Shown: in pieces, positions 19,704 through 26,351 of the stretch
How positions within the stretch are numbered: the first letter of the stretch is position 1
How the letters are laid out: every line of letters begins with the position of its first letter
Source: Natrinema thermotolerans DSM 11552
GTDB lineage: Archaea > Halobacteriota > Halobacteria > Halobacteriales > Natrialbaceae
Direction of reading: 5' to 3'
DNA length: 50,915 nucleotides
Assembly: GCA_000337115.1 (NCBI GenBank)
Contig: AOIR01000064.1
Span: 11,289-62,203, forward strand
Notes under the pieces: generated by a model
The model's database searches: none
The model's input: only the letters and a program-made list of their open reading frames with translations
Told to the model about the DNA's origin: nothing
Program-made: the position numbers and the translations under genes

Positions 19704-20807
19704 TTATTCCATACGGGAGAGCAGCCAGAACGCGACGGCCCCGGCGACGAAGGCAACGCCGACGTTGACGACCGCGCCGACGGCTCCGACCCCCACTACG
19801 AGCGCGAGCGACCGGCGGTCCGAGACGGGGTCGAACGCCGCTCGAGCCAGCTGACCACCGACGACGACCAGCAGGACGCCAAGCAGGGCCATCGGGAACG
19901 CCGCGAGGGCAGCCCCGGCGGCGACCAGCGCGAGTGCGAGGTAGCCGACGCCGAGCAGGACGTTTGCGCCGCCGGTCCGCGCGCCGAAGGCGTACTTGCC
20001 GGCCAGCCCGCCGCTGCCGTGACACATCGGCACGCCGCCCAGCGGGACCGCCGCCAGACAGGTCACGCCCATGCTCCGTGAGAGCGCGTCGGCCGAGACC
20101 TCGCGGTCGTAGAGGTCGCCACAGAGCAGGGCGGTCGCGATGGCGGCGTTCCCGATCGTCATGCCCAACTGGGCGACGGTCCCCTCGATGGCGGCCGCGG
20201 ACAACGCTGGCCGCCCGGCAGGGAAGACCGCGAGCGCGGGCGCGGTCGGCGTCGGAACGCCCGCCGTCGCGACGGCCGCGACCGCGCCGAGCCCGAGGAC
20301 GACTAGTGCGCTCGTCCGGGCGTGGCCGACCAGCGCCAGCAGGCCGACGACGGCGAGCCCGGCCGCCGCTATGGGCGGGTTCCCGACCGAGAGATCGACC
20401 GCCGCCTCGAGCAGGAGCAGCGCGACGGCGAACTGGACGCCGCGGATGACGGGCTCGCCGACGATCCGCTGGAGCCGACCGACGAGCCCGAGCCGGCCGA
20501 CGACGAGCAAGACCCCGCCGGCGAGCAGTCCGGCGGCGGCCAGTTCGGCGTAGGAAAGCGCGCCGACGATCGCCAGCCCGACCAGGGCCTTCATCGGCTC
20601 GACGGAGATCGGCAGGCCGTAGTGGAGTCCCCAGACGATCTGGAAGACGCCAAAGCCAAGCAGGACGTGGGGCAGCGAGACGCTCGTCGTCGCGCCGAGT
20701 GCGACCAGCAGCGGCAACACCGTAACCGAATCCCCTAGCGCACCCGTGAGTTCGCCCGCGGAGAACTCGAGGTCGCGATCGGCCCGCGACTCGACGGAGC
20801 ACGCCAT
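19704..20807 (-). CDS. MOT1-type molybdate/sulfate transporter
   Basis: A 367-residue protein with 10-12 hydrophobic segments. The two MOT1 signatures are present: GLPISVEPMKALVG near residue 64 and PMCHGSGGLAGKYAFGARTG near residue 260. Such SulP-related carriers import molybdate; haloarchaea need molybdenum for nitrate reductase and aldehyde oxidoreductases, none of which is encoded nearby. Start MACSVESRADRDLEFSAGE. A perfect 6-bp hairpin immediately upstream of the ATG may control expression. Confidence 0.82.
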   Translation of the reverse strand: MACSVESRADRDLEFSAGELTGALGDSVTVLPLLVALGATTSVSLPHVLLGFGVFQIVWGLHYGLPISVEPMKALVGLAIVGALSYAELAAAGLLAGGVLLVVGRLGLVGRLQRIVGEPVIRGVQFAVALLLLEAAVDLSVGNPPIAAAGLAVVGLLALVGHARTSALVVLGLGAVAAVATAGVPTPTAPALAVFPAGRPALSAAAIEGTVAQLGMTIGNAAIATALLCGDLYDREVSADALSRSMGVTCLAAVPLGGVPMCHGSGGLAGKYAFGARTGGANVLLGVGYLALALVAAGAALAAFPMALLGVLLVVVGGQLARAAFDPVSDRRSLALVVGVGAVGAVVNVGVAFVAGAVAFWLLSRME

Positions 20808-20957: not shown

Positions 20958-22583
20958 CTATCGAGACGCGGTGCCGCCGTCGCTGATCGTCTCCGGCGTC
21001 GCGTCGGCCGTCGAGACGGCCTCCGGGTCGACGTCGTCGGCGGTCCGTGGCTCCGGCAGGTCGTAGCCGCTCTCGGTGTCGTAGGCGACGAGCTGTGCGT
21101 TCAACTCGCCGGCCTGCTCGGTCAGGACGGTCGCGCTGCGGGCCACGTGGGAGAGTGCCTCCGCCTGGGCCGACGCCCGGCGGGCCGCTCGCGCCGAGGT
21201 CGACGCCGTCGCCGCGCTCGTCTCGGCGGCGTCCTCGACCAGCACGACGACCTGCTGAGTCGCCGACGCCTGCTCTTGGGTCGCCGCGGAGATCTCCTGG
21301 ACGCCGTCGTTGGTCTCCTCGGCGAGCCCGGCGACCTCCTCGAGCGCGGTCGCGGCGTCCTCGACGTCGGCGACGCTGTCCTCGATTCGGCCGCGGCTGG
21401 TCCGGACCTCGTCGGCGGCGGCCATCGCCCGCTCTTTGAGTCCCTCGAGGCGCTCCTCGACGGTCTGGACCGAGTCGTAGACCTCCTCGGAGAGGGTCTG
21501 AATCTCGTCGGCAACCGCGCCGAAGCCCTCGCCGCCGGCCTCGCCCGAACGAGTCGCCTCGATGTTGGCGTTCAGCGCCAGCATGTTGGTCTGTTCGGCG
21601 ATCTCGCTGATCGACTCGATCAGCTCGTCGATCCGCTCGGCTTCGGCCTCGAGCCCCTCGATCTCCTCGAGGGTCCGTTCGGTCTCGGTGTCGATCACGG
21701 CCATGCCGGTGATCGCGTCGCCCGCGGCCTCGCTTCCCTGCCGGCCGACGCGTGCGGTCCGGTCGGCGGTGTCGGCGACCTCGGAGGCGGTCGCGGCGAT
21801 CTCCTCGACCGTCGTCGAGAAGTTCTCCATCTCGGCCGTAACGGTTCGTAATTGTTCGTTCTGTTCCCTGTTGTCCGCGACGACCTCGGTCAGCGCCTCG
21901 CTCGTGCGTTCGCCTTCCGCCTGTACCGCCTCCATGCTGGTCGTGAGTTCGCGACTGTAGGTGACGACCTCGCCGGAAAAGGACTTCAGCGTCCCGAAGG
22001 TGTCCTCGATCTCCGCGAGCATCGCGTTGGAGTTGTCGGCTAACTCGTCGAGCGATTCGTGCGTGCCCGGCCGCTCGAACCGCCGGGTGAGATCGCCCGC
22101 GGCGACCGCCCGCGTCGTCTCCGCGTGGCCCCCGACCGTCCGCTCGAGTTCGTCCAGCGACCGGTCCGTCCGGTCGCGTTCGGCCAACTGCTCCCGGATC
22201 CCCGCCAGCGACGACTCGAGGGCCGCGAACTCGTCGTCGCGGTCGCCGTCGAAGGGGTCGTCGTACTCGCCGGCCTCGAGGTGCGTCACCCGCTCGGTCA
22301 GGTCGGCGATCCCCTCGCGCAGTCGGTCGCGCTGGCGTGGCGCGGTCCGGGCGGGCGAGGCGGCAGCGAGCCCGGCCGCGGTAGCGCCCGTCGCGACGAC
22401 GCCGGCGACGCCAGCCCCGAAAACGGCCGCGGTCGGTCCCCCGAGCGCGACCGCCGCGACGGCGACGACGACCAGTCCGACCACGGCGACCGCGAGGGCG
22501 AAGCCGGCCGGCCGGTCCGACTGTATCGCCCCGGGGATCGGCGACGAGGCGTCCGCGCCGGCCGCCTCGAGCGAGTCAGTCAT
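20958..22583 (-). CDS. Methyl-accepting chemotaxis transducer
   Basis: A 541-residue transducer. Residues about 25-75 contain two membrane helices (FALAVAVVGLVVVAVAAVAL; VFGAGVAGVVATGATAAGLA) with almost no external domain between them. A HAMP-like/coiled-coil region follows (LTERVTHLEAGEYDDPFDGD; VAAGDLTRRFERPG), then the long antiparallel signalling hairpin whose tip reads ISEIAEQTNMLALNANIEAT followed by GEGFGAVADEI; this region contacts CheW/CheA. Ala/Glu-rich flanks are the likely methylation helices. The ATG at 22581-22583 overlaps the stop of the H-NOX gene by 8 nt (ATGACTGA). Lacking its own sensor domain, it probably receives its signal from the H-NOX protein. Confidence 0.9.
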   Translation of the reverse strand: MTDSLEAAGADASSPIPGAIQSDRPAGFALAVAVVGLVVVAVAAVALGGPTAAVFGAGVAGVVATGATAAGLAAASPARTAPRQRDRLREGIADLTERVTHLEAGEYDDPFDGDRDDEFAALESSLAGIREQLAERDRTDRSLDELERTVGGHAETTRAVAAGDLTRRFERPGTHESLDELADNSNAMLAEIEDTFGTLKSFSGEVVTYSRELTTSMEAVQAEGERTSEALTEVVADNREQNEQLRTVTAEMENFSTTVEEIAATASEVADTADRTARVGRQGSEAAGDAITGMAVIDTETERTLEEIEGLEAEAERIDELIESISEIAEQTNMLALNANIEATRSGEAGGEGFGAVADEIQTLSEEVYDSVQTVEERLEGLKERAMAAADEVRTSRGRIEDSVADVEDAATALEEVAGLAEETNDGVQEISAATQEQASATQQVVVLVEDAAETSAATASTSARAARRASAQAEALSHVARSATVLTEQAGELNAQLVAYDTESGYDLPEPRTADDVDPEAVSTADATPETISDGGTASR

Positions 22584-23166
22584 TCGCCTCCCCGCTGTGT
22601 GCGCCGGCCGTGTCCGCCTCGGCGGGTACTCGCCGCCGAATGTCGAAGACGCAGGCGTCGTCGCCCTCGTGCATACAGGTCCGCTCCTCGGCGACGAGGT
22701 CCTCGTCGAAGCGGTCGGCGACGCCCTGGATCGCGCCGCGAGCCACGTCACAGAGGTTCCGGTCCGAATCGTAGGTGATCCGGACCCGGTTCTCGTCGAC
22801 CCGCTCCGACCGAATGCGCGGGGTCGTCAGCGTCGTCATGTCCCGGGTCCGCAGTGAGGTATGGAACCGCTGGATGTTCGCGATGAGTTCGAGCCCCTCC
22901 CAGTCGTCGTCGATGTGGAGGTCGTAGGTCTCGAGCAACGCGGGGACGACCCACCGCCCGTACTGGGTGAGGATCGTCCGCGGGCTCTGATCCGTGAGGT
23001 CGCCAGCAGTACGGGCGATCTCGTAGACGTCGCCGTCCGGATAGACCGTGACCGGGACGTAGACCTTCTCCTCGATGTCAGCCTCGTCCTGAATCGCTAG
23101 CCAGGCGTCCTCGCCGTAGGTATCGACGACGAACGACTGGAGCGTCTGCAGGATTATGCCGTGCAT
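22576..23166 (-). CDS. H-NOX (heme NO/O2-binding) sensor protein
   Basis: A 196-residue haem sensor starting MHGIILQTLQSFVVDTYGED, the classical H-NOX N-terminus. The proximal haem ligand is H102 (IQRFHTSLRTR), and the propionate-binding Y-x-S-x-R motif is Y132-D-S134-D-R136. A C-terminal extension (residues 160-196) has two Cys (C164, C172) before an acidic tail; these residues are close to those of zinc/redox variants, but that is speculative. It would bind NO, or O2 if a distal H-bond donor exists. It is first in a two-gene operon with a methyl-accepting transducer, so gas-dependent taxis is the obvious role. Confidence 0.9.
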   Translation of the reverse strand: MHGIILQTLQSFVVDTYGEDAWLAIQDEADIEEKVYVPVTVYPDGDVYEIARTAGDLTDQSPRTILTQYGRWVVPALLETYDLHIDDDWEGLELIANIQRFHTSLRTRDMTTLTTPRIRSERVDENRVRITYDSDRNLCDVARGAIQGVADRFDEDLVAEERTCMHEGDDACVFDIRRRVPAEADTAGAHSGEAND

Positions 23167-23414: not shown

Positions 23415-24449
23415 GTGAGCGACCTCGGAAAAATCGATCGCGCGTTCTTCGACCGCCACATCGCGCCGAACCTCGGTGCCGACCGCGACGACGTCGCCGT
23501 CGGGCCGACCCACGGCATCGACTTCGGCGTCCTCGATATCGACGACCGCGCGCTGGTCACCGCCACCGATCCCCTCTCGATCCTGCCTGCCTTGGGCCTC
23601 GAGCGGGCCGCACGGTTCGCCCTCGATCTCGTCCTCGCGGACGTGGCCGTCAGCGGCGTCCCCCCGTCACATCTCTCGATCTGTTTCACCCTGCCCGAAT
23701 CGATGACCGACGACGAGTTCGCGACGGTCTGGGAGACGATCCACGCCGAGTGTGCGGACCTCGGCGTCGCCGTCGTGACCGGCCACACGGCGCGATACGC
23801 CGACCCGTCCCACCCGTGGGTCGGCGCGGCCACCGCGATGGGCGTCGGCGACCACGGCGACATCGTTCGGCCCGACGGGGCCCGTCCCGGCGACCGGCTC
23901 CTCCTGACGAACGGCCCCGCCGTCGAGGCCGTCGGCCTGCTGAGTACCCTCTTCGGCGAGGAGATCGACTGTCCCGCCGAGACGATCTCGGCCGCTCAGG
24001 ACCGCCTCGAGGAGGTCTACGCCGTTCGGGACGCCCTCACGGCGGCCGCCGCGGGGCCGGTCCGGGCGATGCACGACGTGACCGAGGGCGGCCTCGCGGG
24101 CGCGTTGAACGAGATGGCCGACGGGGCCGACGCCCGGTTCGCGATCGACCGCGACGCCGTCCCGCTGCGCCCCGGCGTCCGCGAGGTCTGTTCGGCGCTC
24201 GAGATCGATCCCTGGGCGGCGACAAGCTGTGGCTCGCTACTGATCGCGGTCGACCCCGACGGCGTCGCCGACGTCCGCGAGGCGCTCGCGGATCGGGGGA
24301 CGCCGGTCGCCGAGATCGGCCGGGTCGAGGCGCTCGAGGACGACGGCGGCGAGGTGCTGGTCGACGGGGACCGGCTCGCGCACCCGAACGCCGATCCCTC
24401 GTGGGACGCCTACGCGGAGTTGGCCGCCGCGGCGAGCGACGGCTCGTAA
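23415..24449 (+). CDS. AIR synthase-like (PurM/HypE/ThiL superfamily) protein
   Basis: A 344-residue protein of the PurM ATP-binding superfamily. The N-terminal half has DDVAVGPTHGIDFGVLDIDD, FALDLVLADVAVSGVPPSHL and VVTGHTARYADPSHPW; the C-terminal half has RAMHDVTEGGLAGALNEMAD and the ATSCGSLLIAV strand. The HDVTEGG motif is the Mg-ATP site of HypE and AIR synthase-related proteins. The HypE C-terminal Cys tail is absent, and no hydrogenase genes are near, so the substrate is unknown. The GTG at 23415 lies about 27 nt after GTATAAG, fitting a leaderless start. Its TAA abuts the stop of the convergent PQQ-propeller gene with no spacer. Confidence 0.85.
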   Translation: MSDLGKIDRAFFDRHIAPNLGADRDDVAVGPTHGIDFGVLDIDDRALVTATDPLSILPALGLERAARFALDLVLADVAVSGVPPSHLSICFTLPESMTDDEFATVWETIHAECADLGVAVVTGHTARYADPSHPWVGAATAMGVGDHGDIVRPDGARPGDRLLLTNGPAVEAVGLLSTLFGEEIDCPAETISAAQDRLEEVYAVRDALTAAAAGPVRAMHDVTEGGLAGALNEMADGADARFAIDRDAVPLRPGVREVCSALEIDPWAATSCGSLLIAVDPDGVADVREALADRGTPVAEIGRVEALEDDGGEVLVDGDRLAHPNADPSWDAYAELAAAASDGS

Positions 24450-25722: not shown

Positions 25723-26076
25723 TCAGACCTCGCGCAAGCCGAGGCTGTACTCGAGGGCGGTGTCGACCTCGGCCATCCGGTCGTCCGGTACCGATCCGAC
25801 GACGTCCGTGATCCTGTCGTCGATCGAGACGGTTCGAACCTGACTACAGAGCGCGACCGAGTCCTCGCGGAGGGCACACTCGTCGGCTGGAATCAGCACT
25901 TCGAAGGGATACCGCTCGTCCCCGTAGGACGTGGTGAAGGGGACGACGATCGTCGTCGGGGCGTTCTCGTTACCGACGTCGTTCTGGACGACGAGATAGG
26001 GTCTGGTCCCCCGCTGTTCGGAGCCGCGTGTCGGATCGAGTTCGACGACGACGATGTCGCCGCGGCGGACGTGCAT
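25723..26076 (-). CDS. MazF/PemK-family mRNA interferase toxin
   Basis: A 117-residue toxin. VRRGDIVVVELDPTRGSEQR followed by GTRPYLVVQND and TIVVPFTTS is the MazF/PemK SH3-like barrel with its catalytic Arg loop (RGSEQRGTRP). It cleaves mRNA at short sequence motifs. I start it at ATG 26076; GTG 26082 would add two residues and overlap the antitoxin stop as GTGA. It lies directly downstream of the AbrB/MazE-type antitoxin in one operon. Confidence 0.9.
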   Translation of the reverse strand: MHVRRGDIVVVELDPTRGSEQRGTRPYLVVQNDVGNENAPTTIVVPFTTSYGDERYPFEVLIPADECALREDSVALCSQVRTVSIDDRITDVVGSVPDDRMAEVDTALEYSLGLREV

Positions 26077-26078
26077 CG

Positions 26079-26351
26079 TCACTCCTCCCAGTCGGGTGCG
26101 TCGCCGAGGGAGGCGTTCGCTTCACGCGAGGCCCCGTCCATCTCGGCCGCGAGGTCGCGGTGGTGTTCGGCGCGGCGTCGATACCCCTCCGCGAGGTCCG
26201 CCCGCGACGTCGGTTTCTCGATGACGATCTTGTCGTCCTCCTCGCGGATCGTCACCTCGTCGCCGCCGTGGATATCGAACGCCTCTCGAAGCCGCTTCGG
26301 CAGCGTTACCTGCCCGCGATCGCCGACTTTCCGCGTTTCGTGCTCGCTCAT
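26079..26351 (-). CDS. AbrB/MazE-type antitoxin
   Basis: A 90-residue antitoxin. Residues 5-50 (TRKVGDRGQVTLPKRLREAF, then DEVTIREEDDKIVIEK) are a classical swapped-hairpin AbrB/MazE DNA-binding domain. The C-terminal part (SRADLAEGYRRRAEHHRDLA) is a basic helix that would wrap around the MazF toxin; haloarchaeal MazE proteins end with such an acidic/basic tail. It is first in the operon with the MazF gene, which follows within a few bases, and likely represses its own promoter in 26352-26517. Confidence 0.88.
   Translation of the reverse strand: MSEHETRKVGDRGQVTLPKRLREAFDIHGGDEVTIREEDDKIVIEKPTSRADLAEGYRRRAEHHRDLAAEMDGASREANASLGDAPDWEE

Follow-up and report, generated by a model that had tools for sequence, protein, structure and literature searches.

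A split H-NOX/chemoreceptor pair of predicted NO-sensing type in Natrinema thermotolerans and other haloarchaea

In haloarchaea, the sensory rhodopsins and their Htr partners represent an arrangement in which sensor and dedicated transducer are separate proteins, often encoded by overlapping genes. For H-NOX (haem-NO-binding) proteins, the connection to an MCP described in the excerpts of two publications is a fusion, found in anaerobic bacteria (PMC8738867, PMC12329717). According to the same excerpts, a distal tyrosine is needed for O2 binding, and H-NOX proteins without it are NO sensors. The zinc-site ligands of H-NOX are given as C139, C164, C172 and H161 in the excerpted part of PMC7108781. 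The earlier note on this DNA had assumed that stand-alone H-NOX proteins acting on bacterial transducers were known; this was not confirmed, since the MCP partners in the excerpts of PMC8738867 and PMC12329717 are described as fusions. Two bacterial relatives (L156 and L157) contain no MCP within about 5 kb, and thus no split bacterial pair at these two loci. For archaeal H-NOX, no paper was found in a search of the open-licence literature.

The window, that is, the whole 50,915-nucleotide stretch of N. thermotolerans DNA that was analysed, contains an H-NOX gene (positions 22576..23166, minus strand) encoding a protein of 196 aa, identified by Pfam, PDB matches and alignment. Pfam HNOB (PF07700) matches residues 2-159 with 115 bits (cut-off 25.5), covering positions 1-161 of the 163 in the profile, and V4R matches with 37 bits (cut-off 31). 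The nearest solved structures among the PDB matches are the H-NOX proteins of Shewanella and Nostoc. The haem-ligand residues H102, P116 and Y132-x-S134-x-R136 are intact; H102 and the Y-x-S-x-R motif had already been pointed out in the earlier note, and both are present in the alignment. Position 141, equivalent to Tyr140 of O2-binding H-NOX, is occupied by V; this equivalence was set by the offset from R136 (five residues after the Arg of YxSxR) and is consistent with the Nostoc alignment.

In the alignment, three cysteines (C139, C164 and C172) carry the same numbers as the zinc ligands of Shewanella H-NOX, and residue 161 is Glu where His161 is the fourth zinc ligand in Shewanella. The V4R-like C-terminal part, delimited by alignment with 2kii/4u9b, lies at 22666..22752 (minus strand), corresponding to about residues 139-167 with C139 and C164 inside and C172 just beyond. 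The stretch bearing C164 and C172 matches Shewanella H-NOX column by column and is how the H-NOX/V4R fold normally ends, so that only approximately the last 18 residues are lineage-specific. Because the cysteines sit at the Shewanella zinc-ligand numbers, the supposed two-cysteine C-terminal extension is an ordinary domain end carrying the predicted zinc site, its three cysteines being found in all 45 haloarchaeal proteins that retain the haem-ligand histidine. The C-terminal cysteines as an additional feature were consequently ruled out, their columns being those of the zinc site in the Shewanella alignment and in the excerpted part of PMC7108781.

The adjoining gene (20958..22583, minus strand) encodes a sensorless MCP-type transducer of 541 aa, as judged from Pfam, a helix scan and alignment. 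It matches MCPsignal with 101 bits, and a Kyte-Doolittle scan places membrane helices at residues 29-47 and 52-70 with almost no outer loop between them. HAMP scores 18 bits, below the cut-off of 25, and is weak in the other pair transducers tested as well. The end of the H-NOX gene and the start of the transducer gene share 8 bases (22576..22583, minus strand): the transducer ATG (22583) lies within the last codons of H-NOX, whose TGA stop ends at 22576. The overlap and the helix scan confirm the description in the earlier note of an H-NOX gene with an overlapping transducer having two helices and hardly any outer domain.

Both features recur among the 31 H-NOX/transducer pairs found in Halobacteria. 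Overlaps of 8 or 4 bases occur in 24 of them when scored with the start codon nearest to the H-NOX stop. Two close helices were detected in 27 of the transducers and one, by threshold, in a single case; the other three (L069, L071 and L073) have no helices and appear soluble. An outer sensor domain is present in none of the 31. Transducers that have no outer domain and in some cases no membrane part are what would be expected if the signal is cytosolic. When the 391 genomes were searched with a profile built from the first 230 residues of the transducer, 28 places scored above 165 bits, 12 of these places having contributed to the profile; all 28 lie beside H-NOX, and the next best match scored 159 bits.

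PF07700 matches were found in 85 of the 391 Halobacteria genomes, and about 5 kb on each side of every match was collected, resulting in 115 loci and 120 H-NOX ORF rows, of which four fragments (three from L145, one from L146) were excluded from the counts. His102 is kept in 45 of these proteins and lost in 71. A tree of 44 His-type (the partial L144 excluded) and 71 His-less archaeal proteins with two bacterial ones separated the two sets by one branch with 100/100 support. P116, YxSxR and C139/C164/C172 are present in all 45 His-type proteins. At position 161, 42 proteins have E, two have H and one has Q; position 141 is V, L, F, W or I and never Tyr, and positions 9 and 74 are mainly apolar as well.

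A same-strand adjacent transducer was recorded, in a list set by hand, at 31 of 42 His-type loci versus none of 71 His-less ones (Fisher p = 7.5e-19, a value that ignores shared descent). For this count the partial L144 was entered as His-type without MCP, the contig-end loci L054 and L057, which are not judgeable, as "no MCP", and L032 as adjacent, its transducer beginning 619 bases downstream; at the His-less loci L070, L085 and L097, scored as non-adjacent, an MCP lies 1.5-3.5 kb off with other genes between. The 11 His-type loci without adjacent MCP therefore comprise two at a contig edge, one fragment and eight true exceptions. At these eight complete loci (L033, L035, L047, L048, L055, L056, L063 and L074) no MCP was found within about 5 kb, so not every haem-type H-NOX signals through an adjacent MCP. 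The co-occurrence of the two genes across Halobacteria, which the earlier note had made a point on which its proposal could fall, was thus borne out. At three loci (L032, L034 and L060) tandem H-NOX genes precede one transducer, the second copies forming their own branch, which suggests a heteromeric sensor.

Within Natrinema the comparison can be made at the site itself. The pair is flanked by a gene for a MOT1-type molybdate transporter (19704..20807, minus strand; Pfam MFS_MOT1, 140 bits), outside the module, and, on the opposite side of the insertion site, by one for an AIR-synthase-related protein (23415..24449, plus strand; Pfam AIRS/AIRS_C). These are 2607 bases apart in this genome, with the pair between them. 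Haem-type H-NOX is absent from eight Natrinema genomes, none of which has a transducer match of this rank. Five of the eight (G321, G117, G302, G375 and G091) have an empty site with the flanking genes 207-518 bases apart, and in the remaining three the orthologue of the AIR-synthase-like gene is likewise missing. Judged from these genomes, the H-NOX/transducer pair comes and goes as a single unit within the genus, and strains with the empty site are natural controls. Elsewhere in the window, overlapping small ORFs on the minus strand (25723-26082 and 26079-26351) resemble a toxin of the PemK/MazF type paired with an antitoxin similar to AbrB.

In other haloarchaea the pair is located inside chemotaxis operons. 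The gene order is CheA-CheC-HNOX-HNOX-MCP-CheW-CheC-CheD at L034 (G383), HNOX-MCP-CheY-CheA at L072 (G182), and HNOX-MCP-CheW-CheY followed by a gene for an Hpt protein at L059 (G077), where a truncated globin gene is divergent from H-NOX. This truncated haemoglobin (PF01152; L059:4459-4821) occurs also in the clusters L051, L057 and L062, all from one haloarchaeal genus, and is plausibly an NO-handling neighbour of the H-NOX-MCP operon. A wider search found H-NOX in 14 genomes of the phylum outside Halobacteria, three of them below or near the threshold, and at six of ten such loci examined an MCP lies within the stretch. One of these, in a non-haloarchaeal archaeon (L180, G612:C49), is a complete operon with the order MCP-CheW-CheY-CheX-CheB-HNOX-CheA, and its H-NOX keeps the His and lacks the Cys. 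At L180 and five similar non-haloarchaeal loci, the H-NOX near an MCP has no C-terminal Cys. The presence of H-NOX in che operons of haloarchaea and at L180 means that the link between H-NOX and chemotaxis recurs in two archaeal lineages.

CheA was detected in 30 of the 31 pair genomes versus 314 of 391 overall (p 0.016, ignoring phylogeny). The only pair genome missing a CheA match, G182, yet has a CheA-like gene beside the pair; G276 is borderline (7e-4). Copper nitrite reductase (NirK) is not significantly commoner in pair genomes, 20 of 31 having a match at E<1e-80 while 208 of all 391 genomes exceed the cut-off (p 0.26), and an NO source of the cell's own is therefore no general partner of the pair.

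That H-NOX is the input of the transducer, which the earlier note considered likely, is well supported at the level of sequence, because the genes are adjacent and translationally overlapping, are present or absent jointly, and are placed in che operons elsewhere. As ligand, NO or O2 had been proposed. The NO part of this proposal stands as a prediction and the O2 part does not: the distal pocket has no O2-stabilising Tyr, for which reason NO rather than O2 is predicted, and the zinc-site cysteines are of the NO-sensing class, further pointing to NO. In the probable scheme, a NO-type H-NOX drives this transducer: the cytosolic protein would bind haem through His102 and most likely sense NO, NO binding would change its conformation, and the altered H-NOX may shift the signalling state of the transducer by direct contact. 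The transducer, having no outer sensor domain, would act as the adaptor that connects H-NOX to the kinase CheA and may modulate this kinase. The sign of the response, like its output, is a matter of prediction here.

Other readings of the same data deserve consideration. H-NOX might sense redox through its Cys3 zinc site, instead of NO through haem, and relay this to the transducer, as the invariance of C139/C164/C172 in 45 of 45 His-type proteins and the persistence of the three cysteines in 59 of 71 His-less proteins, which have no haem ligand, would allow; the excerpted part of PMC7108781 moreover describes a haem-free Vibrio cholerae H-NOX that is activated by oxidation at the zinc site. 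However, His102, P116 and YxSxR are invariant in all MCP-paired proteins, although they would be needless for redox sensing alone, and the L180 protein sits inside a che operon without the cysteines; redox sensing is accordingly regarded as unlikely. An O2 sensor for aerotaxis would have the same type of partner as the H-NOX-MCP fusions with which anaerobic bacteria bind O2, and haloarchaea are likely to use O2 as a cue, but the Tyr that O2 binding requires according to the excerpts of PMC8738867 and PMC12329717 is replaced by V, L, F, W or I in 45 of 45 proteins, and positions 9 and 74 offer mainly apolar side chains. O2 was rejected as ligand on the absence of Tyr at position 141 among the 45 His-type proteins, and a role in aerotaxis is highly improbable.

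The transducer may also be constitutive or otherwise stimulated, H-NOX being merely a co-transcribed neighbour. Adjacency alone does not prove contact, and the eight His-type H-NOX genes without an MCP neighbour would agree with such independence; nevertheless, the two genes are gained and lost together, the transducer family occurs only with H-NOX, and the pair recurs in different che operons, which makes mere neighbourhood very unlikely. The NO-driven transducer is thus the preferred reading.

Regarding the output, this genome (G000) contains CheA (G000:C41:30514-30696), CheB, CheR, CheC and CheY as well as four MCP matches, and neither archaellin (PF01917) nor ArlD/E (PF04659) was found in it by profile search at 99.25% completeness. 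Taxis had been suggested for the pair; in spite of CheA and the four MCPs, this genome lends no support to taxis by swimming, and archaellum-driven swimming is probably not the output, because no archaellum genes were found. ArlD/E is present in eight of 21 Natrinema genomes and does not track the pair: it occurs in three of nine genomes with haem-type H-NOX adjoining the flank genes (G033 being cut by a contig end) and in three of seven without, five further genomes being unscored for the pair. The che cluster of this genome (CheY, CheB, CheA, CheC, CheC, CheR; G000:C41, L159, L163) adjoins a cluster of type IV pilus-like appearance, comprising a secretion-type ATPase, a T2SSF platform protein and small membrane proteins. 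Type IV pili or another CheA-dependent output are more likely in this organism, pili being a guess from this adjacency.

The second H-NOX of this genome (G000:C33:75995-76471; L116:5039-5653) belongs to the His-less clade, a monophyletic, fully supported set of 71 haloarchaeal proteins (loci L068-L143). Residue 102 is Y in 40 of these, A in ten, V and T in eight each, R in two, and I, S and L in one each. In most loci the gene stands between genes that, named from sequence reading, are presumably PRPP-synthetase-like and IleRS-like, a housekeeping neighbourhood. According to the excerpted part of PMC7108781, conservation of the proximal His is absolute across the 598 sequences collected with the Vibrio protein, a rule from which the His-less clade departs. 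Signalling by H-NOX without haem has so far been known from the Vibrio protein, which is easily haem-free, and this sister clade provides a natural test case for it. As a doubtful but possible overall picture, the H-NOX proteins of haloarchaea may fall into two lines: one, of haem type, would sense NO and act through its dedicated sensorless transducer on CheA, directing surface behaviour (type IV pili) and not swimming in archaellum-free strains; the other, an anciently split clade that lost the haem ligand and kept Cys3, would sense redox state or metal without haem.

If the proposed scheme is true, the pair would give archaea a defined route from NO to a chemoreceptor, and the separation of sensor and transducer into two proteins would allow signalling from H-NOX to MCP to be reconstituted in vitro from its components. 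Compared with known systems, the split, NO-type, zinc-site H-NOX/MCP pair in archaea is a variant of the known bacterial fusion. It shares with the Tar4-type fusions of the obligate anaerobes Caldanaerobacter and Thermoanaerobacter an MCP signalling domain with H-NOX as its input and a membrane-bound transducer; unlike them, it consists of two separate archaeal proteins, has the zinc-site Cys, and is without the distal Tyr, so that NO rather than O2 is predicted. Like the stand-alone H-NOX of Shewanella and Vibrio, encoded with HnoK or a diguanylate cyclase, it is a separate protein in an operon with its effector and has Cys139/164/172 at identical numbering, 2kii and 4u9b being its closest solved structures, but it is partnered by a chemoreceptor, where those proteins act with a histidine kinase or an enzyme of c-di-GMP metabolism, and the fourth ligand position of its predicted zinc site is Glu in 42 of 45 proteins, in place of His or Gln. 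A parallel in organisation within haloarchaea is with the sensory rhodopsin-Htr pairs, which likewise combine a separate sensor with its own transducer, often in overlapping genes, the sensor being a membrane photoreceptor there and a soluble haem protein here.
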